DNA of 64,000 nucleotides from Blastococcus tunisiensis. GTDB taxonomy: Bacteria; Actinomycetota; Actinomycetes; Mycobacteriales; Geodermatophilaceae. A program made the position numbers and the translations under genes. This document shows, piece after piece, positions 34,670-43,194 of this stretch (its first letter is position 1; each line of letters begins with the position of its first letter). The notes below the pieces were generated by a model. It made no database searches and was not told the origin of the DNA. It saw nothing but the letters and a program-made list of their open reading frames with translations. The stretch covers positions 128,216 through 192,215 of the forward strand of contig NZ_FOND01000006.1 in NCBI RefSeq assembly GCF_900112815.1, given 5' to 3'.

Positions 34670-35182
34670 TCAGGCGGTCAGCGCGGCGACCACCTGCGGG
34701 TGGATCCGCTCGGCGGTGGCCCGCAGCTCCTCGTCCGTGCGGTCCTGCACCGGGTGCGGCACCAGCACGAACGGGGCCGGGAAGCCCAGCGCCTCGCCCT
34801 GCAGGCGGGCGGCGTCGGCGAAGGCCTCGCTGGCGAGGAAGAGACCCACCACGCCGCGGCGCTCGAGGTCGGCGATGTCGTGCACACTGCACGACGTGCA
34901 CGAGCCCTAATCGGCCAGCGCCTCGATGACCACCTCGCACTGCTCGGCGATCTCGTGCCGCAGGTCGACCGGCGCGGTCCGGGCGAACGTGGGCTTGCGG
35001 TACCGGTGCACCACGGCGCCGTCGGCGGTGAGCAGCTCCTCGAGACGGTCCAGGACCACGTCGCCCCGTGCCTTGCTGATGTCGAGCAGCCCCACGCGCC
35101 GGCCCCGCAGCGAGGACGGGCGGGGCAGCAGCTCGCGTGCCGACGTCTGCCGCTCGCCGGTCGGGTCCAGGACGGTTCTCAT
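34670..35182 (-). CDS. UGSC-family selenoprotein with selenocysteine encoded by UAG
   Basis: The 170-residue frame begins at ATG 35182 (MRTVLDPTGE), overlapping the upstream thioredoxin-like gene by ATGA, and ends at TGA 34670. Codon 92 is UAG (34907-34909), placed exactly where selenocysteine sits in the UGSC motif: E-A-L-A-D-[UAG]-G-S-C-T-S-C-S-V-H-D. Coding continues for 78 conserved-looking residues (GFPAPFVLVPHPVQDRTDEE). A hairpin of bacterial SECIS geometry follows the UAG. UAG-programmed selenocysteine is reported in Geodermatophilus and Blastococcus. A conventional gene caller would split or truncate this gene at 34907. Function is probably thiol/selenol redox chemistry; substrate unknown. 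Confidence 0.82.
34877..34895 (-). promoter_or_regulatory. Putative bacterial SECIS hairpin
   Basis: On the minus strand, 11 nt after the UAG, GTCGTGCA pairs perfectly with TGCACGAC around the loop GTG. That is an 8-bp stem whose apical loop begins with G, 19 nt from the recoded codon. These features fit the published bacterial SECIS pattern (loop about 16-37 nt after the codon, G at loop position 1 or 2). It lies inside the coding region, as bacterial SECIS elements do. Confidence 0.7.
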
Positions 35183-36597
35183 GCGTGCACCTCTCTGCTG
35201 ACCGGGGAGCTCCCGGCCTCCCCGGACACCCACCCGCCGATGATCGCGCTGAACAGTCCGGCGTCGCCGCCCGCGTGCGCCACCAGCAGGCCGCCGGGTC
35301 GGAACTTGGGCAGGTCGGCGCCCGCCAGGTTGGCGGGCACGCCTTCGGCCATCCCCCCGACGCCGCGCAGCAGTTCCCCGGCGGGCAGGGTGAGCAGGCC
35401 GTCCAGCTCGGCGAGCAGCCGGGCCCGGTCCCAGCCGGCCTCCCGGAACACCCGCCCGTGCTCCGGGGAGACGACGAGCATCGCGTCGAAGGCCATCGGC
35501 AGTTTCGGGTGCGCGTTGACCCGCAGGCAGGCGGCGAACGTCCGGGCCAGCGACTCCGGGTCCCGGCTGAGCTGGTCGACCACCGGCTGCACCCCCGACC
35601 CGGCGAAGAGCGTGACCGCGTCGCCGGGGACGCCGCGGTCGGCGGCCAGCGGCGCGAACGGGCTGTCCTCCTCCCGCTCGGCGAAGCAGAAGGTGGTCTT
35701 GCCCGGATTGCCCAGGGTCGCCCGGTCCACCTCCCCCGGCCGTCCCCCGCCGACGTTGCGCTCGACGAGCTGCAGCGCCCGGCCGATCGTCGCGTTGGCC
35801 CGGTTCCCCTGGCCGAGGGCGTTGACGCCGCTGTTCATCCCGATCCGCCGGGCCACGGGACCGTTGACGACGATCAGCGGGCCGGAGAAGTACGTCGTGG
35901 CCAGCAGCCCGTGCAGCGCGAACTCCTCCGCGCAGGCGGCCTCGAGCGCGGCCAGCACGACCGGCAGGTGCTCGGGCAGGCAGCCGGCCATGACCGCGTT
36001 GACGGCGACCTTCTCGACGGTGCACTCCACGAGGTCCGGCGGCACGACGGCCACCACCTCCCGCGGGTCCCGCGGCGTGCCACGCAGCATCCGCAGCACC
36101 CGCTCGGGGGTCGGTGGGACGACGGGCAGCCCGTCGGTCCAGCCGCGGTCGAACAGCGCCTCGTGCTCGTCCTCGAGGTCGGCCAGCTCCACCCGTCGGC
36201 TGCTCAGCCCGCTGCCGCCGTACCGCGCCTCCAGTGCGTCGATCCGGCCCGGGTCCACCGACAGCGACCCGCAGCCGGGCCGGTGCTCGGGCAGCCCGGG
36301 TCCGAGCCCGGTCACGCCGGTGAGGCCCTCCCACTGCTCCCGGCTCCAGCCGACCACCCGGGCCGTCTCGGTCCCGCCCTCCACCCGCATCAGCGTCGGG
36401 ACGGTCTCGATCCCCAGCCGGTAGGACAGTTCCAGCTCGGTGTCGTCGCCGTCGAACCAGCCGGCGTCGTCCTGGCACCAGACGGCGGCACCCAGCTCGC
36501 GCAGCACCGGCTCGACCAGCACGCAGGTCGGGCAGTCGCGCTTGACCACCGCGACGAGTCCGTCCGAGAGCAGCACGCTGCCGACCGTAGCGCCCAC
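35179..36597 (-). CDS. Thioredoxin-domain protein coupled to the UGSC selenoprotein
   Basis: The 472-residue protein has an N-terminal thioredoxin-like domain with a C-P-T-C redox pair (VVKRDCPTCVLVEPVL, Cys22/Cys25), then a cis-Pro region ETVPTLMRVEGG. The remaining ~370 residues form a separate conserved domain (WTDGLPVVPPTPERVLRML, VNAVMAGCLPEHLPVVLAAL, GMNSGVNALGQGNRANATIGRA) that I cannot assign. Start is GTG 36597 or GTG 36576. ATGA coupling with the selenoprotein suggests the two act together, perhaps with this protein supplying electrons. Confidence 0.78.
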   Translation of the reverse strand: MGATVGSVLLSDGLVAVVKRDCPTCVLVEPVLRELGAAVWCQDDAGWFDGDDTELELSYRLGIETVPTLMRVEGGTETARVVGWSREQWEGLTGVTGLGPGLPEHRPGCGSLSVDPGRIDALEARYGGSGLSSRRVELADLEDEHEALFDRGWTDGLPVVPPTPERVLRMLRGTPRDPREVVAVVPPDLVECTVEKVAVNAVMAGCLPEHLPVVLAALEAACAEEFALHGLLATTYFSGPLIVVNGPVARRIGMNSGVNALGQGNRANATIGRALQLVERNVGGGRPGEVDRATLGNPGKTTFCFAEREEDSPFAPLAADRGVPGDAVTLFAGSGVQPVVDQLSRDPESLARTFAACLRVNAHPKLPMAFDAMLVVSPEHGRVFREAGWDRARLLAELDGLLTLPAGELLRGVGGMAEGVPANLAGADLPKFRPGGLLVAHAGGDAGLFSAIIGGWVSGEAGSSPVSREVHA

Positions 36598-36691: not shown

Positions 36692-38158
36692 TCAGGCGAG
36701 GGAGATGATCACCGACTTGCTGCGGGTGTAGGCCTCGAGCCCCTCGGGGCCGTTCTCCCGGCCGTAGCCGGAGTCGCCGACGCCGCCGAACGGCAGGGCG
36801 GGGTCGAGCATCGCCCAGTCGTTGATCCAGACGATCCCGGCCTTCAGCGCGGCGGCCACCCGGTGCGCCCGGGCCAGGTTCGTCGTGTGCAGCCCCGCGG
36901 CCAGCCCGTAGGGGGTGCTGTTGGCCAGCGCGACGGCCTCCTCCTCGGTGTCGAAGGCCTGCACGGTGACGACCGGGCCGAAGATCTCCTCCTGCACCGC
37001 GCGCGATTCGTTGGGCAGGCCGGTGATCACCGTCGGCTCGTAGAAGAATCCGCCGGCCGACTCGCGGCGCTTGCCGCCGGCGACGACCTTGCCGCCGTCC
37101 TCCCGGGCGATGGCGACGTAGCGCTCCACGTTCTGCAGGTGCCGCTCGGCGGCCATCGGGCCGATGACCGTGCCTGGGTCGAACGGGTCGCCGACCGGGA
37201 CGCCGGGGACGGCGTCGGTGAGGATGCCGACCAGGGTGTCGTGCAGCGGGCGGGCCACGAGCAGCCGCGGCGCGCCCATGCAGAACTGCCCGGTGTTGAA
37301 CACGAAGCCCTTGATCGCCGCCCCGACGGCCTTCTCCAGGTCGGCGTCGTCGAAGACGATCTGCGGCGCGTTGCCGCCGAGCTCCAGCGTGAGCGGGGTG
37401 AGGTTCCGGCCGGCGGACTCCGCGACCGAGCGCCCGACTGCCGTCGACCCGGTGAAGGTCACCTTGTCGACGTCCGGGTGCGCCACGAGAGCCTGCGCCA
37501 TCTCCGGGGACGCGCCGGTGAGGACGTTCACCGTGCCGGCCGGCACCCCGGCCTCGGTGAGGATGCGCGCCATCAGCAGGGCCGACAGCGGGGTGTCCGG
37601 CGCCGGCTTGTGCACGACGGTGTTGCCGGCCGCCAGCGCCGGGGCGATCTTGGCGCTGCTGAGGATCAGCGGGAAGTTGAACGGCGTCACGACCGCCACG
37701 ACGCCGAGGGCCTCCCGACGGGTGTAGGCGTGCGACGGGATGCCGACCGGCCGGACGGACCCGTCGATGCTCTGCGCCAGGGCCGAGTAGTACTCGTAGG
37801 TCTCGGCCGCGGTGTTCACGTCCACGGCGGCGCACAGCGAGACCGGCTTCCCGACGTCGACGCTCTCCACGGCCGTGAGCTCGGCCGCGTGCTCGCGGAT
37901 CAGGTCGGCCACGCGGTGCAGCACGCGGGCCCGGTCGCGGGGCGAGGTGCGCGCCCACTCCCCCGTGTCGTACGCCGTGCGGGCCGCGGCGACGGCGCGG
38001 TCGACGTCCTCGATCGTCGCGTCGGCCACGGTGGTCGCCACCTGGCCGGTGGACGGGTCGACGACGTCCATCCGGCCCCCGCCGGTGGACTCGACCCACT
38101 CGCCCCCGATCAGCAGGCGGCCCGGGTCGAGGGTGGGGCGGGTGATCGGCTGGGTCAT
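36692..38158 (-). CDS. Aldehyde dehydrogenase (NAD(P)+-dependent)
   Basis: The 488-residue protein starts at the ATG giving MTQPITRPTL; the longer frame upstream is not conserved. It has the family motifs VTPFNFPL near 152, FTGSTAVGRSVAE near 225, ELGGNAPQIV with the catalytic Glu near 250, and FNTGQFCMGAPRL with the nucleophilic Cys near 284. It oxidises an aldehyde intermediate to an acid, which the adjacent acyl-CoA ligase could activate. Last gene of a five-gene minus operon; a clear terminator follows. Confidence 0.93.
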   Translation of the reverse strand: MTQPITRPTLDPGRLLIGGEWVESTGGGRMDVVDPSTGQVATTVADATIEDVDRAVAAARTAYDTGEWARTSPRDRARVLHRVADLIREHAAELTAVESVDVGKPVSLCAAVDVNTAAETYEYYSALAQSIDGSVRPVGIPSHAYTRREALGVVAVVTPFNFPLILSSAKIAPALAAGNTVVHKPAPDTPLSALLMARILTEAGVPAGTVNVLTGASPEMAQALVAHPDVDKVTFTGSTAVGRSVAESAGRNLTPLTLELGGNAPQIVFDDADLEKAVGAAIKGFVFNTGQFCMGAPRLLVARPLHDTLVGILTDAVPGVPVGDPFDPGTVIGPMAAERHLQNVERYVAIAREDGGKVVAGGKRRESAGGFFYEPTVITGLPNESRAVQEEIFGPVVTVQAFDTEEEAVALANSTPYGLAAGLHTTNLARAHRVAAALKAGIVWINDWAMLDPALPFGGVGDSGYGRENGPEGLEAYTRSKSVIISLA

Positions 38159-38219
38159 GGGTGCTCGCTCTCTCCCGGGTGCGACGGTGCGCCCGGGCCG
38201 GATGAGGGGGACGGGCGGA

Positions 38220-38684
38220 TCAGAGGTAGTAGCGGACGACGATCGTGGCCACGCACGCGGGCTTCGTGCCGCCCTCCACCTCGAAGGTGGCCGAGGTCTG
38301 CAGCTGCACGCCACCGGGGACGTCGGTGACCGAGTCGACGACGGCGCGCGCCCGCAGCTTGCTGCCGACCGGCACCGGCGAGGGGAAGCGCACCTTCTCG
38401 GTGCCGTAGTTGACGCCCATCCCGAACCCGGTGACGTTCATGATCTGCGGCGCCAGCCGCGGCCACAGCGACAGGGTGAGGTAGCCGTGGGCGATCGGGC
38501 CGCCGAACGGGCTCTCCTTGGTCGCGCGCTCGACGTCGACGTGGATCCACTGGTGGTCACCGGTGGCGTCGGCGAAGAGGTTGACCATGTCCTGGGTGAT
38601 CTCGACCCAGTCGCTGGGGCCGAGCTCCTTGCCGGCGAGGCTCTTCGCGCCCTCGACGCCGTCGACGCTGATGGGGGTGGCCAT
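38220..38684 (-). CDS. MaoC family dehydratase
   Basis: The 154-residue hot-dog-fold protein has the (R)-specific enoyl-CoA hydratase signature: FADATGDHQWIHVD with the catalytic Asp/His near residues 40-45, followed by FGGPIAHGYLTLSLWP. It hydrates enoyl-CoA thioesters. Gene order next to an acyl-CoA ligase, an SDR and an aldehyde dehydrogenase fits a side-chain beta-oxidation-like route. Confidence 0.9.
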   Translation of the reverse strand: MATPISVDGVEGAKSLAGKELGPSDWVEITQDMVNLFADATGDHQWIHVDVERATKESPFGGPIAHGYLTLSLWPRLAPQIMNVTGFGMGVNYGTEKVRFPSPVPVGSKLRARAVVDSVTDVPGGVQLQTSATFEVEGGTKPACVATIVVRYYL

Positions 38685-38758
38685 GGGGATCTCCTGTTTC
38701 CTCGGGGTGCTGGGCCGGCCGCGCCGGTCCAGGGGTGTGCCGGTCGTGTGGGTGCGGT

Positions 38759-40372
38759 CTAGGGGGTGTGCTGGGCGACGTCGCGCGCCCAGGAGAGGTC
38801 GGCCTTGCCGGACGGGCTGCGCCTGAGCTCGTCGACGACGACCAGCTCGCGCGGGCGCTTGTGATCGGCCAGCCGCGCGCCCACGTAGGCGGCGGCCTCC
38901 TCGTCGGTGAGCGTGGCGCCGGGGCGCAGCGAGACGACGGCGACGATCCGCGATCCCCACCGCTGGTCGGGCGCACCGACGACGATCGCGTCCCGGACCG
39001 CCGGATGGGTGAGCAGCAGCTGCTCGACCTCCTCGGCGTGCACCTTCTCGCCGCCGGTGTTGATCACCCGGCTGCCACGGCCGTGGAACACCACGGTCCC
39101 GTCGGCGTCCAGGCTGGCCATGTCACCGGGGACGACCCACCGGGTCCCGCCGAACTCGCGGAACGTCGCGGCGGTAGCCGCGTCGTCGCCCTGGTACCGG
39201 ATGTGCGCGTCCACCGGGGCGGCGAGGAACCCGAGCTCGCCCGAGCCCGGTGTGACGGGCCGGCCGGCGTCGTCGATCACCTGGGCGCCCGGGAACAACC
39301 GGAAGCGGGCGGTCTCGGCCGGATCGCCGCGGCGGGTCTCCTGCACGGCGTACGGGCCGCCCTCGGAGGAGGCGACCAGGTCGCGGCAGACCAGGTCGGC
39401 GTGGTGCAGCAGCCGCTGCTTGACGTCGGCACTCCAGGTGACCCCGACGCTGATGATCCGCCGCATGGTGCTCAGGTCGTAGGGCCGGCCGGCCGCCTCG
39501 GCGGCGTCGAGCGCGTCGGCCAGCGGCCGGGCGAAGACGTCGCCGACGATCGAGACGGTGTCGACCCGCTCGCGCGCGACCGTCGCCGCCAGCTCGTCGG
39601 CGTCGTAGGACCTCGACGGCAGGTAGACCACCCGCCCGCCGGCCAGCAGCGCGCCGAGGGTGGTGTACATGCCGGTCGCGTGCATCAGCGGCGGCGCGGG
39701 CAGGCAGACCATCGCGTCGCGGTCGGTGCCGAGCCGCTCCAGCGTCGACCGCAGCTCCGCCAGGGTCCGGGGCAGCGGCTCCCCCAGCAGCAGCAGCCCG
39801 TTGGCGCTGCAGGTGGCGAACAGGCCGGAGTGCCGGGAGAGGACGCCCTTGGGCCGGCCGGTGGTGCCGCCGGTGTACATCAGCCAGTGGTCGTTCCCGC
39901 GCTCGATGCGCGGCGCCGGCTCGGCGGCGGCGAGGGCCTGCTCGTAGTCGGCCGCCCACGCCGGCGCGGCGTCCGGCCCGCCGACCTGGACCAGCGCGCG
40001 GAGCCCGGGGAGGTCGCCCCGGGCCTCGCCGAACCGCTCGGCGAGCGAGGCGTCGAAGACAACCGCCTCGGCCCGCGCGTCGTCGAGCAGCTGCACGAGC
40101 TCCTCGCGCCGGTACCGGTAGTTCACGTTCAGCGGGACGGCGCGGAGCTTGAGGATCGCGTAGACGCTCTCCACGTACTCGATGCCGTTGTAGAGGGCGA
40201 CCGCCACCCGCGACTCCGGGCCGATGCCCTGCCCGGCCAGGTGCGCGGCCAGCCGTGCCGCCCGCGCGTCGAGCTCCGCCCAGGTCCGGGTGCGCGACCC
40301 GTGGCTCACCGCGAGCCGGTCGCGCCGCAGGTCCCCCACCGTCTCCAGGACGGTCGCGAAGCTCTCGTTCAC
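38759..40372 (-). CDS. Acyl-CoA synthetase (AMP-forming)
   Basis: The 537-residue ANL-superfamily ligase starts at GTG with GAGAGAGGA upstream. Motifs are MYTGGTTGRPKGVLSRH (P-loop) near 168, SEGGPYAVQET near 315, DMASLDADGTVVFHGRGSRVINTGGEKV (hinge) near 415, and a C-terminal SPSGKADLSW with the catalytic Lys. It activates a carboxylic acid to an acyl-CoA; family resemblance is to fatty or aromatic acid ligases. Substrate unknown. Confidence 0.92.
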   Translation of the reverse strand: MNESFATVLETVGDLRRDRLAVSHGSRTRTWAELDARAARLAAHLAGQGIGPESRVAVALYNGIEYVESVYAILKLRAVPLNVNYRYRREELVQLLDDARAEAVVFDASLAERFGEARGDLPGLRALVQVGGPDAAPAWAADYEQALAAAEPAPRIERGNDHWLMYTGGTTGRPKGVLSRHSGLFATCSANGLLLLGEPLPRTLAELRSTLERLGTDRDAMVCLPAPPLMHATGMYTTLGALLAGGRVVYLPSRSYDADELAATVARERVDTVSIVGDVFARPLADALDAAEAAGRPYDLSTMRRIISVGVTWSADVKQRLLHHADLVCRDLVASSEGGPYAVQETRRGDPAETARFRLFPGAQVIDDAGRPVTPGSGELGFLAAPVDAHIRYQGDDAATAATFREFGGTRWVVPGDMASLDADGTVVFHGRGSRVINTGGEKVHAEEVEQLLLTHPAVRDAIVVGAPDQRWGSRIVAVVSLRPGATLTDEEAAAYVGARLADHKRPRELVVVDELRRSPSGKADLSWARDVAQHTP

Positions 40373-40385
40373 GCGGGGTCCTCTC

Positions 40386-41285
40386 TCATGCGGGCTGCGC
40401 TGGGCCGGCGAGGCCGAGCAGCCGGGCGGCGTTGTCCTTCATGATCTTCGGCCGGACCTCGTCCTTGATGGGCAGGCCGGCGAAGTCCTTCATCCACCGG
40501 TCCGGGGTGATCACGGGGAAGTCCGAGCCGAACAGCACCTTGTCCTTGAGCAGCGAGTTGGCGTACTGCACCAGCTGCGGCGGGAAGTACTTGGGCGACC
40601 AGCCGGACAGGTCGATGTGCACCCGGGGCTTGTGGGTGGCCACCGACAGCGCCTCGTCCTGCCAGGGGAAGGACGGGTGGGCCAGGATGATGTCCAGGTC
40701 CGGGAAGTCCACCGCGACGTCGTCGACGTGCAGCGGGTTGGAGTACTTCAGCCGGATCCCGCCACCGCCGGGCGAGCCGGCACCCACCCCGGTCTGCCCG
40801 GAGTGGAACAGGGCGATCAGCCCGTGCTCGGCGATCACCTCGTACAGCGGGTAGGCCGCCCGGTCGTTGGGGAAGAAGCCCTGGGTGTTGGGGTGGAACT
40901 TGAACCCCCGCACGCCGTGCTCGGTGATCAGCCGACGCGCCGCGCGCACCCCGGCCGCCCCGCGGCCGGGGTCGATGCTGGCGAACGGGATCAGCACGTC
41001 GGCGTGCTCGGCGGCCAGCTCGGCGATCTCCTCGTTGCCGGGCACCATCTCCTCCCCGGTCTGGGAGACGCTGTCCACGCCGAAGACGACCGCGGCCATC
41101 TTCCGCTCGCGGTAGTAGTCGGCCAGCTCCGACACGGAGTACCGGGGCATCGAGCCGATGCCGAAGTACTCCCCCATGTCCTCCCCCGCGGCGCGGTGGG
41201 TCTCGCCGCGGACGGACCGGTGGACGTGGGTGTGCACGTCGATGGCGACGAGCTGGTCGAGGTCCATGGTGGGCACGTCGCTCAC
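40386..41285 (-). CDS. Amidohydrolase 2 family metal-dependent hydrolase/decarboxylase
   Basis: The 299-residue TIM-barrel protein has the N-terminal AIDVHTHVHRS metal motif, VRGFKFHPNTQGFFPND near 130, IILAHPSFPWQDE near 200 and FGSDFPVITPD near 258. This is the ACMSD/gamma-resorcylate decarboxylase group, which acts on aromatic acids or ring-cleavage products. The GTG start overlaps the SDR stop by 4 bp. Confidence 0.85.
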   Translation of the reverse strand: MSDVPTMDLDQLVAIDVHTHVHRSVRGETHRAAGEDMGEYFGIGSMPRYSVSELADYYRERKMAAVVFGVDSVSQTGEEMVPGNEEIAELAAEHADVLIPFASIDPGRGAAGVRAARRLITEHGVRGFKFHPNTQGFFPNDRAAYPLYEVIAEHGLIALFHSGQTGVGAGSPGGGGIRLKYSNPLHVDDVAVDFPDLDIILAHPSFPWQDEALSVATHKPRVHIDLSGWSPKYFPPQLVQYANSLLKDKVLFGSDFPVITPDRWMKDFAGLPIKDEVRPKIMKDNAARLLGLAGPAQPA

Positions 41286-42184
41286 TTCCCGGAGTCCTGG
41301 GAGAGCTGCTGGAAGTCCTGCAGGTGTGGCGCGAAGGTCGTCGGGAAGGCCTCGGCGAGGGCGTCGGCGCTCCAGCCGCCCTCGCGGACCTCGGCGACGA
41401 CCTCGGTCGGGTGCGACCAGATCGCGATCCGGTCCCCGCCGGCGCCGATCGCCTGCCCGGTGATGCCCGCGGCCTCGTCGGAGGCGAGGAAGACCACCAG
41501 CGGGGCGACGTCGTCGGAGGTGCCGAGCCCGCCGGCGCGGACGTCGGCCGGGATCGGCTCGCCGCGCTCGGCCTTCTCCACCAGCTCGGCCAGCGCCGGG
41601 ATGGTGGCGACCATCCGGGTCAGCGCCACCGGGATGACCGCGTTGACCGTCGTGCCGCTGCGCTGCAGCTCGGCCGCCCAGGTGCGGGTGAGGCCGACGA
41701 TGCCCGCCTTCGAGGCGGTGTAGCCGGTCTGCCCGAAGCTGGCGCGCTGGCCGGCCGGTGACCCGATGAGGATGAGCCGGCCCCCGCCGCCCTGCTCCTT
41801 GAACTGCCGGGCCGCGGCGCGGCCGCAGGTGAAGGTGCCGCGTAGGTGCGTCTCGACGACGAGGTCGAAGTCGGGGTCCTCCATCTTGAGCAGCGACCGG
41901 TCCCGGAGCACACCGGCGTTGGTCACCATGACGTCCAGCCGGCCGAACTGCTCGACCGCCGTGGCCACGATCGCCTCGGCCGCCTCGGTGGACCCGACGG
42001 CGGAGCCCTCGGCCACCGCTGTGCCGCCGGCGGCCCGGATCGCGGCGACCGTCTCCTCGGCCAGGTCCAGGTCGAGGTCGTTCACGACGACCGCGGCGCC
42101 CGCGGCGGCGAGTGCTCTGGCGTACGCCTGGCCGAGACCGCGACCGGCGCCGGTGACGACGGCGACCTTGCCGGTGAGCTGCAT
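41282..42184 (-). CDS. SDR-family NAD(P)-dependent oxidoreductase
   Basis: The 300-residue short-chain dehydrogenase has the cofactor motif TGAGRGLGQAYARAL, NDLDLD, VTNAGVLRD, a catalytic Ser in LIGSPAG, and YTASK. Length and the C-terminal tail resemble 3-hydroxyacyl-CoA dehydrogenases of the MFE-2 type. It is first in the operon, with a good promoter about 70 bp upstream and AGAGGAA before the ATG. Confidence 0.92.
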   Translation of the reverse strand: MQLTGKVAVVTGAGRGLGQAYARALAAAGAAVVVNDLDLDLAEETVAAIRAAGGTAVAEGSAVGSTEAAEAIVATAVEQFGRLDVMVTNAGVLRDRSLLKMEDPDFDLVVETHLRGTFTCGRAAARQFKEQGGGGRLILIGSPAGQRASFGQTGYTASKAGIVGLTRTWAAELQRSGTTVNAVIPVALTRMVATIPALAELVEKAERGEPIPADVRAGGLGTSDDVAPLVVFLASDEAAGITGQAIGAGGDRIAIWSHPTEVVAEVREGGWSADALAEAFPTTFAPHLQDFQQLSQDSGK

Positions 42185-42253
42185 GGGGTTCCTCTCGAGA
42201 GCTGGGGAGTCCGCCGTCCGGCGCTGCGATCCGCCGACGGTGACGACCCCCTG

Positions 42254-42282
42254 ACGTTATTCACTGCTCTGTCGGCCGTCAA
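42254..42282 (-). promoter_or_regulatory. Promoter of the SDR-to-ALDH operon
   Basis: On the minus strand TTGACG (42277-42282), a 17-bp spacer and TAACGT (42254-42259) make a near-consensus housekeeping promoter about 70 bp upstream of the SDR ATG, in one of the few AT-rich patches of the region. It faces away from the PaaX gene, which ends at 42310. Confidence 0.6.
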
Positions 42283-42309
42283 TGCAGCGCCACAGTCACC
42301 GGCGGACGG

Positions 42310-43194
42310 TCACCGGTTCCCGTCCCCGTCCGGCTCGTGCATGGGCACCACCAGCTCCCGGGCGAGCGCCGCCGCTGCCGCCTCGTACCGCGCGCGCAGC
42401 CGGAGCGCCACGTGCTCGGCGCGGACCGCCGGCCAGTCCGCCGGCAGGTACTCCACCGGCAGCCCCGGGTCGGTCCGGGCCAGCAGCGTCCACTCCCCCA
42501 GCAGCCACAGCTGGCGGGCCAGGTCGTCGGCCGCCCCCGGGAGCGGGTCGGGCCGGTCCCAGCGCTGCAGGAAGCGGGCGTAGCCCCGTGCGATCCCCGC
42601 CAGGTCCCAGGCGTCGTCGATGAGCTCCGCCACCTGGGTGGGTGCGGCGACCTCGGCCCGGAACACCTTCAGGTGGTCCAGCACGTCCAGCGGCCCGAGC
42701 AGCTCCGCCACGTCGATGCGCCGGGGCGCCACCCACAACCCGTTCTGCAGCAGGCCGAACCCGGCCCATTCCAGCCGGGAGCGCAGCAGGTGCCGGTCGG
42801 CCCGGCGGCTCTCGGGCAGGGAGAAGCCCAGCAGCGTCCACTGCCCGTCCCAGGTGCGGTTGACCGGCGACTGCCAGGCCCGCTCCCCACCGCGGGCCAG
42901 GGTCACCCGCGTGGCCGTCGTCGGCGCCAGGTGGCTGCGCTTGCCCACGCGGCGGCTCTGCAGCGTGCCCCGCTGGAGCATGCGGTTGACCGTCGAGCGG
43001 GCCGCGTGCTCGCCGACCCCCACCCGGGCCAGCACGTCCACCATCGCCGGGGTGGGCACGGTGAGGCCGGGATCGAGCAGGTGGATGCCGCAGAACATCA
43101 GCACGTGCGTCTGGGGGCGGATCGCCGTCGGCGAGGAGTCGGGCCCGCCGTCGAGAGCCGCGCCGGGATCGAGCGGGAGAACGCTGCCGGGCAT
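42310..43194 (-). CDS. PaaX family transcriptional regulator
   Basis: The 294-residue protein has the N-terminal winged-helix pattern of PaaX proteins (RSTVNRMLQRGTLQSRRVGKRSHLAPT), a central domain (WTLLGFSLPESRRADRHLLRSRLEWAGFGLLQNGLWVAP) and the C-terminal helical domain (WLLGEWTLLARTDPGLPVEYLPADWP). PaaX-type repressors respond to aryl-CoA esters. It sits at the head of the CoA-ligase operon on the same strand, so it probably controls that operon. Confidence 0.88.
   Translation of the reverse strand: MPGSVLPLDPGAALDGGPDSSPTAIRPQTHVLMFCGIHLLDPGLTVPTPAMVDVLARVGVGEHAARSTVNRMLQRGTLQSRRVGKRSHLAPTTATRVTLARGGERAWQSPVNRTWDGQWTLLGFSLPESRRADRHLLRSRLEWAGFGLLQNGLWVAPRRIDVAELLGPLDVLDHLKVFRAEVAAPTQVAELIDDAWDLAGIARGYARFLQRWDRPDPLPGAADDLARQLWLLGEWTLLARTDPGLPVEYLPADWPAVRAEHVALRLRARYEAAAAALARELVVPMHEPDGDGNR

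Follow-up and report, generated by a model that had tools for sequence, protein, structure and literature searches.

In Geodermatophilaceae, formate dehydrogenases and proteins with the UGSC motif have been described as carrying selenocysteine programmed by UAG (Mukai and others 2016, as given in the excerpts of PMC5330540 consulted), and the same excerpts add AhpC of Blastococcus saxobsidens. The related UGSC selenoproteins of the UGA type (PMC2398784; family models NF041046 and PF24696) were deemed likely, in the part of PMC2398784 consulted, to have a Trx-like fold. In this work, a window of 64,000 nucleotides from Blastococcus tunisiensis (C19:128216-192215 of genome G000) was analyzed, and it contains a UGSC-family gene which, on the sequence evidence, is almost certainly a selenoprotein gene with selenocysteine programmed by UAG. 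The initial annotation had cited the 2016 report of UAG selenoproteins, and the excerpts of PMC5330540 bear this out. The use of UAG for selenocysteine is thus not new in kind, having already been reported for Geodermatophilaceae. The locus shares with the systems in these excerpts the family, a CUA tRNA-Sec, and UAG in both UGSC proteins and formate dehydrogenases, whereas the genome and the gene copy are different ones. Compared with the UGA-type proteins in the consulted part of PMC2398784, it belongs to the same HMM family and has the same motif, but the codon is UAG and not UGA, and its predicted fold is Rossmann/flavodoxin-like, where a Trx-like one is considered likely there. What is added here is that some genera of the family decode UGA and that two UGSC lineages carry TAG; the excerpts of open-licence literature on UAG selenocysteine and Geodermatophilaceae, which was not queried for these points, describe neither.

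The UGSC gene (34670..35182, minus strand) was recognized from its frame and HMM matches and encodes 170 residues when UAG is counted as selenocysteine. Translation from ATG at 35182 to TGA at 34670 gives 170 codons and the final stop, and TAG at 34909-34907 (codon 92; feature 34907..34909, minus strand) is the sole internal stop, just as the initial annotation had it. GSCTSC follows directly, so UAG takes the U position of the UGSC motif, a placement also borne out by the orthologue column. In this column, which is common to TGA and TGC/TGT copies, TAG precedes GSC in agreement with the U-or-C-G-S-C pattern of the family. The read-through protein matches Pfam UGSC (PF24696) over residues 3-169 with an E-value of 2.5e-45 (155.1 bits against a cut-off of 25) and exceeds the cut-off of NCBIfam UGSC_fam (NF041046) with 148.7 bits against 125. 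The Pfam match bears out the earlier reading of both sides of the UAG as coding sequence, and by comparison with orthologues the 78 residues downstream of codon 92 are coding and conserved. It had also been correctly stated that TAG lies two substitutions away from TGA, TGC, and TGT. A sequence search of solved structures for the UGSC protein returned nothing useful.

The gene directly upstream (35179..36597, minus strand) encodes a partner protein of 472 residues with an N-terminal thioredoxin-like domain (CPTC) and a larger unassigned part, and its stop TGA overlaps the UGSC start codon as ATGA at 35182-35179. In front of this module lies a run of catabolic genes on the minus strand (window 36692-43194) for an aldehyde dehydrogenase, an AMP ligase, an amidohydrolase, an SDR, and a PaaX-like regulator. 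Within flanks of at most about 4 kb at 80 loci, these genes are not kept beside the orthologues, where one ALDH and two SDR matches of 37-40% identity were found, and therefore the catabolic neighbors give no function for UGSC.

A predicted SECIS-type hairpin (34877..34895, minus strand) starts 11 bases 3' of the UAG and has the form GUCGUGC-AGUGU-GCACGAC, with seven pairs and a five-base loop. For covariation, 59 TAG rows were reduced to 19 distinct UGSC and formate dehydrogenase elements, in which 90.2% of cells are paired, both sides have changed in six of the seven pairs, and RGUNU is the loop consensus, with G, U, and U invariant. Three measures (the share of paired cells, that of cells changed on both sides, and the covariation score) were above every one of 500 shuffles. 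The other two of the five measures failed against the shuffles, namely pairs changed on both sides (33/500) and further pair types (186/500), and the two basal pairs are broken in one paralogue clade (six of the 19 elements). The loop serine codon is AGT in 103/103 distinct Sec copies and in 0/13 others; AGT makes up 1.9% of serine codons (18/956) in 50 gene-like ORFs. Furthermore, as a likeness to the UGA-type proteins, the TGA orthologues have a hairpin of identical or almost identical sequence. The 19-base hairpin taken alone has a folding z of -3.44, while the 38-base stretch folds no better than its shuffles (z -0.60), with a different pairing as the minimum-energy fold. Since folding energy by itself is weak evidence, it is covariation, together with the conserved codon, that supports the hairpin.

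The covariance model gave 28 matches in the whole genome. Its four strong places are two UGSC genes and two formate dehydrogenases, all with an in-frame UAG, so that the genome has three further UAG selenoprotein genes besides the UGSC gene of the window. They are a remote UGSC paralogue with UAG and hairpin (L068, G000:C28:477978-478487) and two TAG-type formate dehydrogenases, one at C19:114337-116115, which is 12 kb before the window, and one on C42. Sixteen of the other 24 matches were inspected by eye, and none of the sixteen was convincing. The fifth match (C27:274889, 25 bits) was taken as false, the opposite frame being of coding type and alpha/beta hydrolase-like just below the Pfam cut-offs. 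Two long open frames around TAG (L230 and L231) were also set aside, with opposite frames of coding-type composition. UAG genes whose hairpin is of another kind, for example the AhpC of PMC5330540, could escape this model.

The initial annotation had proposed searching the genome for selA, selB, selD, and a tRNA-Sec with a CUA anticodon, and all four were found. The scores of selA, selB, and selD (418.6, 279.4, and 389.4 bits) are each above the NCBIfam cut-off, and the tRNA-Sec (G000:C26:210373-210464, 69.1 bits) is above the Rfam cut-off and flanked by selD on one side and by selA and selB on the other. Of the matches in the genome, two above this cut-off and five weaker, the two were read, and they are the CUA tRNA and a tRNA-Ser. 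The CUA tRNA-Sec is also present in all 16 genomes of the same genus that were searched. Release factor RF1 is encoded in the genome (477.3 bits, cut-off 423.25), and among 40 gene-like ORFs of the window, picked by base composition and not by annotation, five end in TAG and 35 in TGA. The presence of RF1 and the ending of ordinary genes at UAG therefore indicate recoding, not reassignment. A second release-factor-like gene (L246, G000:C35:20079-21107), with 249 bits to the RF1 model and below its cut-off, is probably RF2.

By comparing relatives, the agreement of codon and anticodon can be followed beyond this genome. A UGSC-like match is present in 54 of 112 genomes of Geodermatophilaceae. 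The close orthologues of the family, at about 69-99% identity, carry exactly one TAG, in the same column, in 36/36 cases (window included), and a CUA tRNA-Sec was found in all 36 of their genomes (29 from the order draw and seven from a further search). The order draw gave the CUA pattern in 75/75 family genomes against 1/322 others. With genera g5-g7 set apart, the further search covered 22 family genomes and gave it in 20, the two misses being 72% and 80% complete. In the phylum draw of 396 genomes, the matches were the window's own genome and G579, for which ARAGORN detects no tRNA. Codon 92 had been suggested for an orthologue alignment, and there the named loci on GTDB contigs, taken as the best 80 of 300 relatives, have TAG in 27 cases, TGA in 53, and a sense codon in none. 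Each of the 27 TAG records bears Blastococcus or Geodermatophilus as its title, and the TGA loci come from MAGs or environmental assemblies whose record titles, as given, name Acidimicrobiia, Ilumatobacteraceae, Frankiales, one Anaerolineales, and others. A tRNA-Sec was sought in eight of the genomes whose orthologue has TGA; seven gave one, with UCA in 7/7, and none was recovered from the genome of L146. Outside the family, the order draw gave a single CUA match (G230; L112, L113), in a genome that also has a UCA tRNA-Sec. Its sel regions align to that of the window's genome at 78% identity over 2.9 kb on the CUA contig and at 69% over 2.0 kb on the UCA contig; because of this difference G230 is possibly a mixed MAG, and two systems in one genome are also possible. 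Pairs of Cys-type UGSC genes, 3-5 kb apart and without the hairpin, occur in three genomes of genus g9 (L080, L114, L115).

These comparisons bear directly on other explanations of the UAG. That it is a true nonsense mutation or a sequencing error in a Cys-type UGSC gene would fit the in-frame stop and the Cys forms among the remote paralogue copies, in which the Sec column holds TAG in 13, Cys in 12, and an aligned TCG in one of the 26 fetched. However, the sharing of the same TAG by every close orthologue and by the 27 named records already refutes this explanation, coding continues past the TAG into the conserved 78 residues, and its probability is negligible. Nor do the orthologues end before the motif, the outcome that the initial annotation had named as contrary to its reading; they run through it.

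The pyrrolysine system likewise has a CUA anticodon and a UAG codon, and ARAGORN calls the CUA tRNA a tRNA-Pyl (cta) in all 17 copies. That pyrrolysine is inserted at this UAG, or that a general amber suppressor reads it, is nevertheless very improbable, as the tRNA is above the Rfam tRNA-Sec cut-off and adjoined by selA, selB, and selD, and as the site is TGA in orthologues and Cys in remote paralogues. Moreover, no pyrrolysyl-tRNA synthetase was found above the cut-off (best 22.9 bits against 178.15), with a model that also matches 13 of 14 control genomes, one of them above the cut-off. A table in the consulted part of PMC3639795 has for Geodermatophilus obscurus a tRNA-Pyl that is marked as Infernal-verified and footnoted 'No UAG-anticodon', and nothing is entered for PylS; this was perhaps the CUA tRNA-Sec, mistaken as by ARAGORN here, although the footnote fits poorly. 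It is also conceivable, if rather unlikely, that reading of the UAG as selenocysteine is only partial and that a truncated form of 91 residues is a functional product as well. Competition is to be expected with RF1 present and UAG ending other genes, but the sequence beyond the UAG is conserved, and nothing noticed here points to selection for the short form. Selenocysteine as the meaning of UAG in this organism, as the initial annotation had proposed, thus appears well supported by the CUA tRNA-Sec, by selA, selB, and selD, and by orthologues with TAG or TGA; of the refuting outcomes listed there, none of those that sequence can probe was found.

For formate dehydrogenase, a TIGR01591 query gave mostly molybdoenzyme matches without inner stops, and a query built from the TAG type worked better. 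With the latter (E 1e-60), 97 of 108 genomes of the family gave a formate dehydrogenase of the TAG type, and 95 of these have at least one copy bearing one TAG. The two exceptions are G011, where the match begins past the Sec site, and G079 (L209, L210), where both copies are without the segment of Sec codon and hairpin and the frame is shifted there. G079 nonetheless has a CUA tRNA-Sec, and the loss of the segment may be either an assembly artefact or a recent loss.

In three genera of the family, g5, g6, and g7 (L097-L103), the CUA pattern was found in 0/9 genomes and UCA in 7/9; a UCA tRNA-Sec was found in 0/22 other family genomes tested. A formate dehydrogenase with TGA at the Sec site is present in 4/4 g7 genomes (L107-L110), and the TAG type in none of the nine g5-g7 genomes, so TGA and TAG are seen here on different types of formate dehydrogenase and not on a single orthologue. 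Because g5-g7 have UCA and the g7 formate dehydrogenase has TGA, the change from UGA to UAG seems to lie inside the family. By inference, g5-g7 may have branched first and UGA would have preceded UAG.

The history of the UGSC genes was followed in a protein tree of UGSC and partner with 81 rows, of which ten are less than half filled. The 28 TAG rows form two groups kept apart by starred branches, and the fewest codon changes are two, likewise in the bootstrap trees. An AU test on a reduced set of 24 rows, selected after the first tree had been inspected, rejects a single TAG clade (p 0.00086). Group A (24 rows, the window among them) adjoins TGA row L146, which fills 33% of columns. Group B (four Geodermatophilus) adjoins TGA rows L151 and L164, and nearest to it are TGA copies of MAGs titled Frankiaceae or Frankineae. 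With this AU result, TAG appears to occur in two separate UGSC gene lineages. Either both lineages were present at the tRNA change and both were rewritten, or group B was acquired later from a lineage that decodes UGA and rewritten afterwards. A broader account, to which we give slightly less than even chances, is that UAG replaced UGA as the selenocysteine codon inside the family and that selenoprotein genes arriving later from UGA-decoding neighbors were rewritten by two substitutions, the UGSC-partner module carrying TAG in two lineages.

We hypothesize that the UGSC protein is made as follows. By the established bacterial pathway, the tRNA-Sec would be charged with serine, and SelA would convert the serine on the tRNA to selenocysteine with selenophosphate from SelD. 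SelB would then bring the Sec-tRNA to those UAG codons that precede a hairpin, and this delivery would compete with RF1, which still ends ordinary genes at UAG. In the protein, Sec-92 would sit where a helix begins in the predicted Rossmann/flavodoxin-like domain and could, with Cys-95 and the thioredoxin-like partner, carry out a thiol/selenol redox step; both this function and the involvement of the partner are inferred.

Standard annotation ends such proteins at the UAG. The UGA- and UAG-decoding genera offer a natural before-and-after comparison within one family, and the genome data support a family moving an encoded amino acid between stop codons while the hairpin signal is kept.
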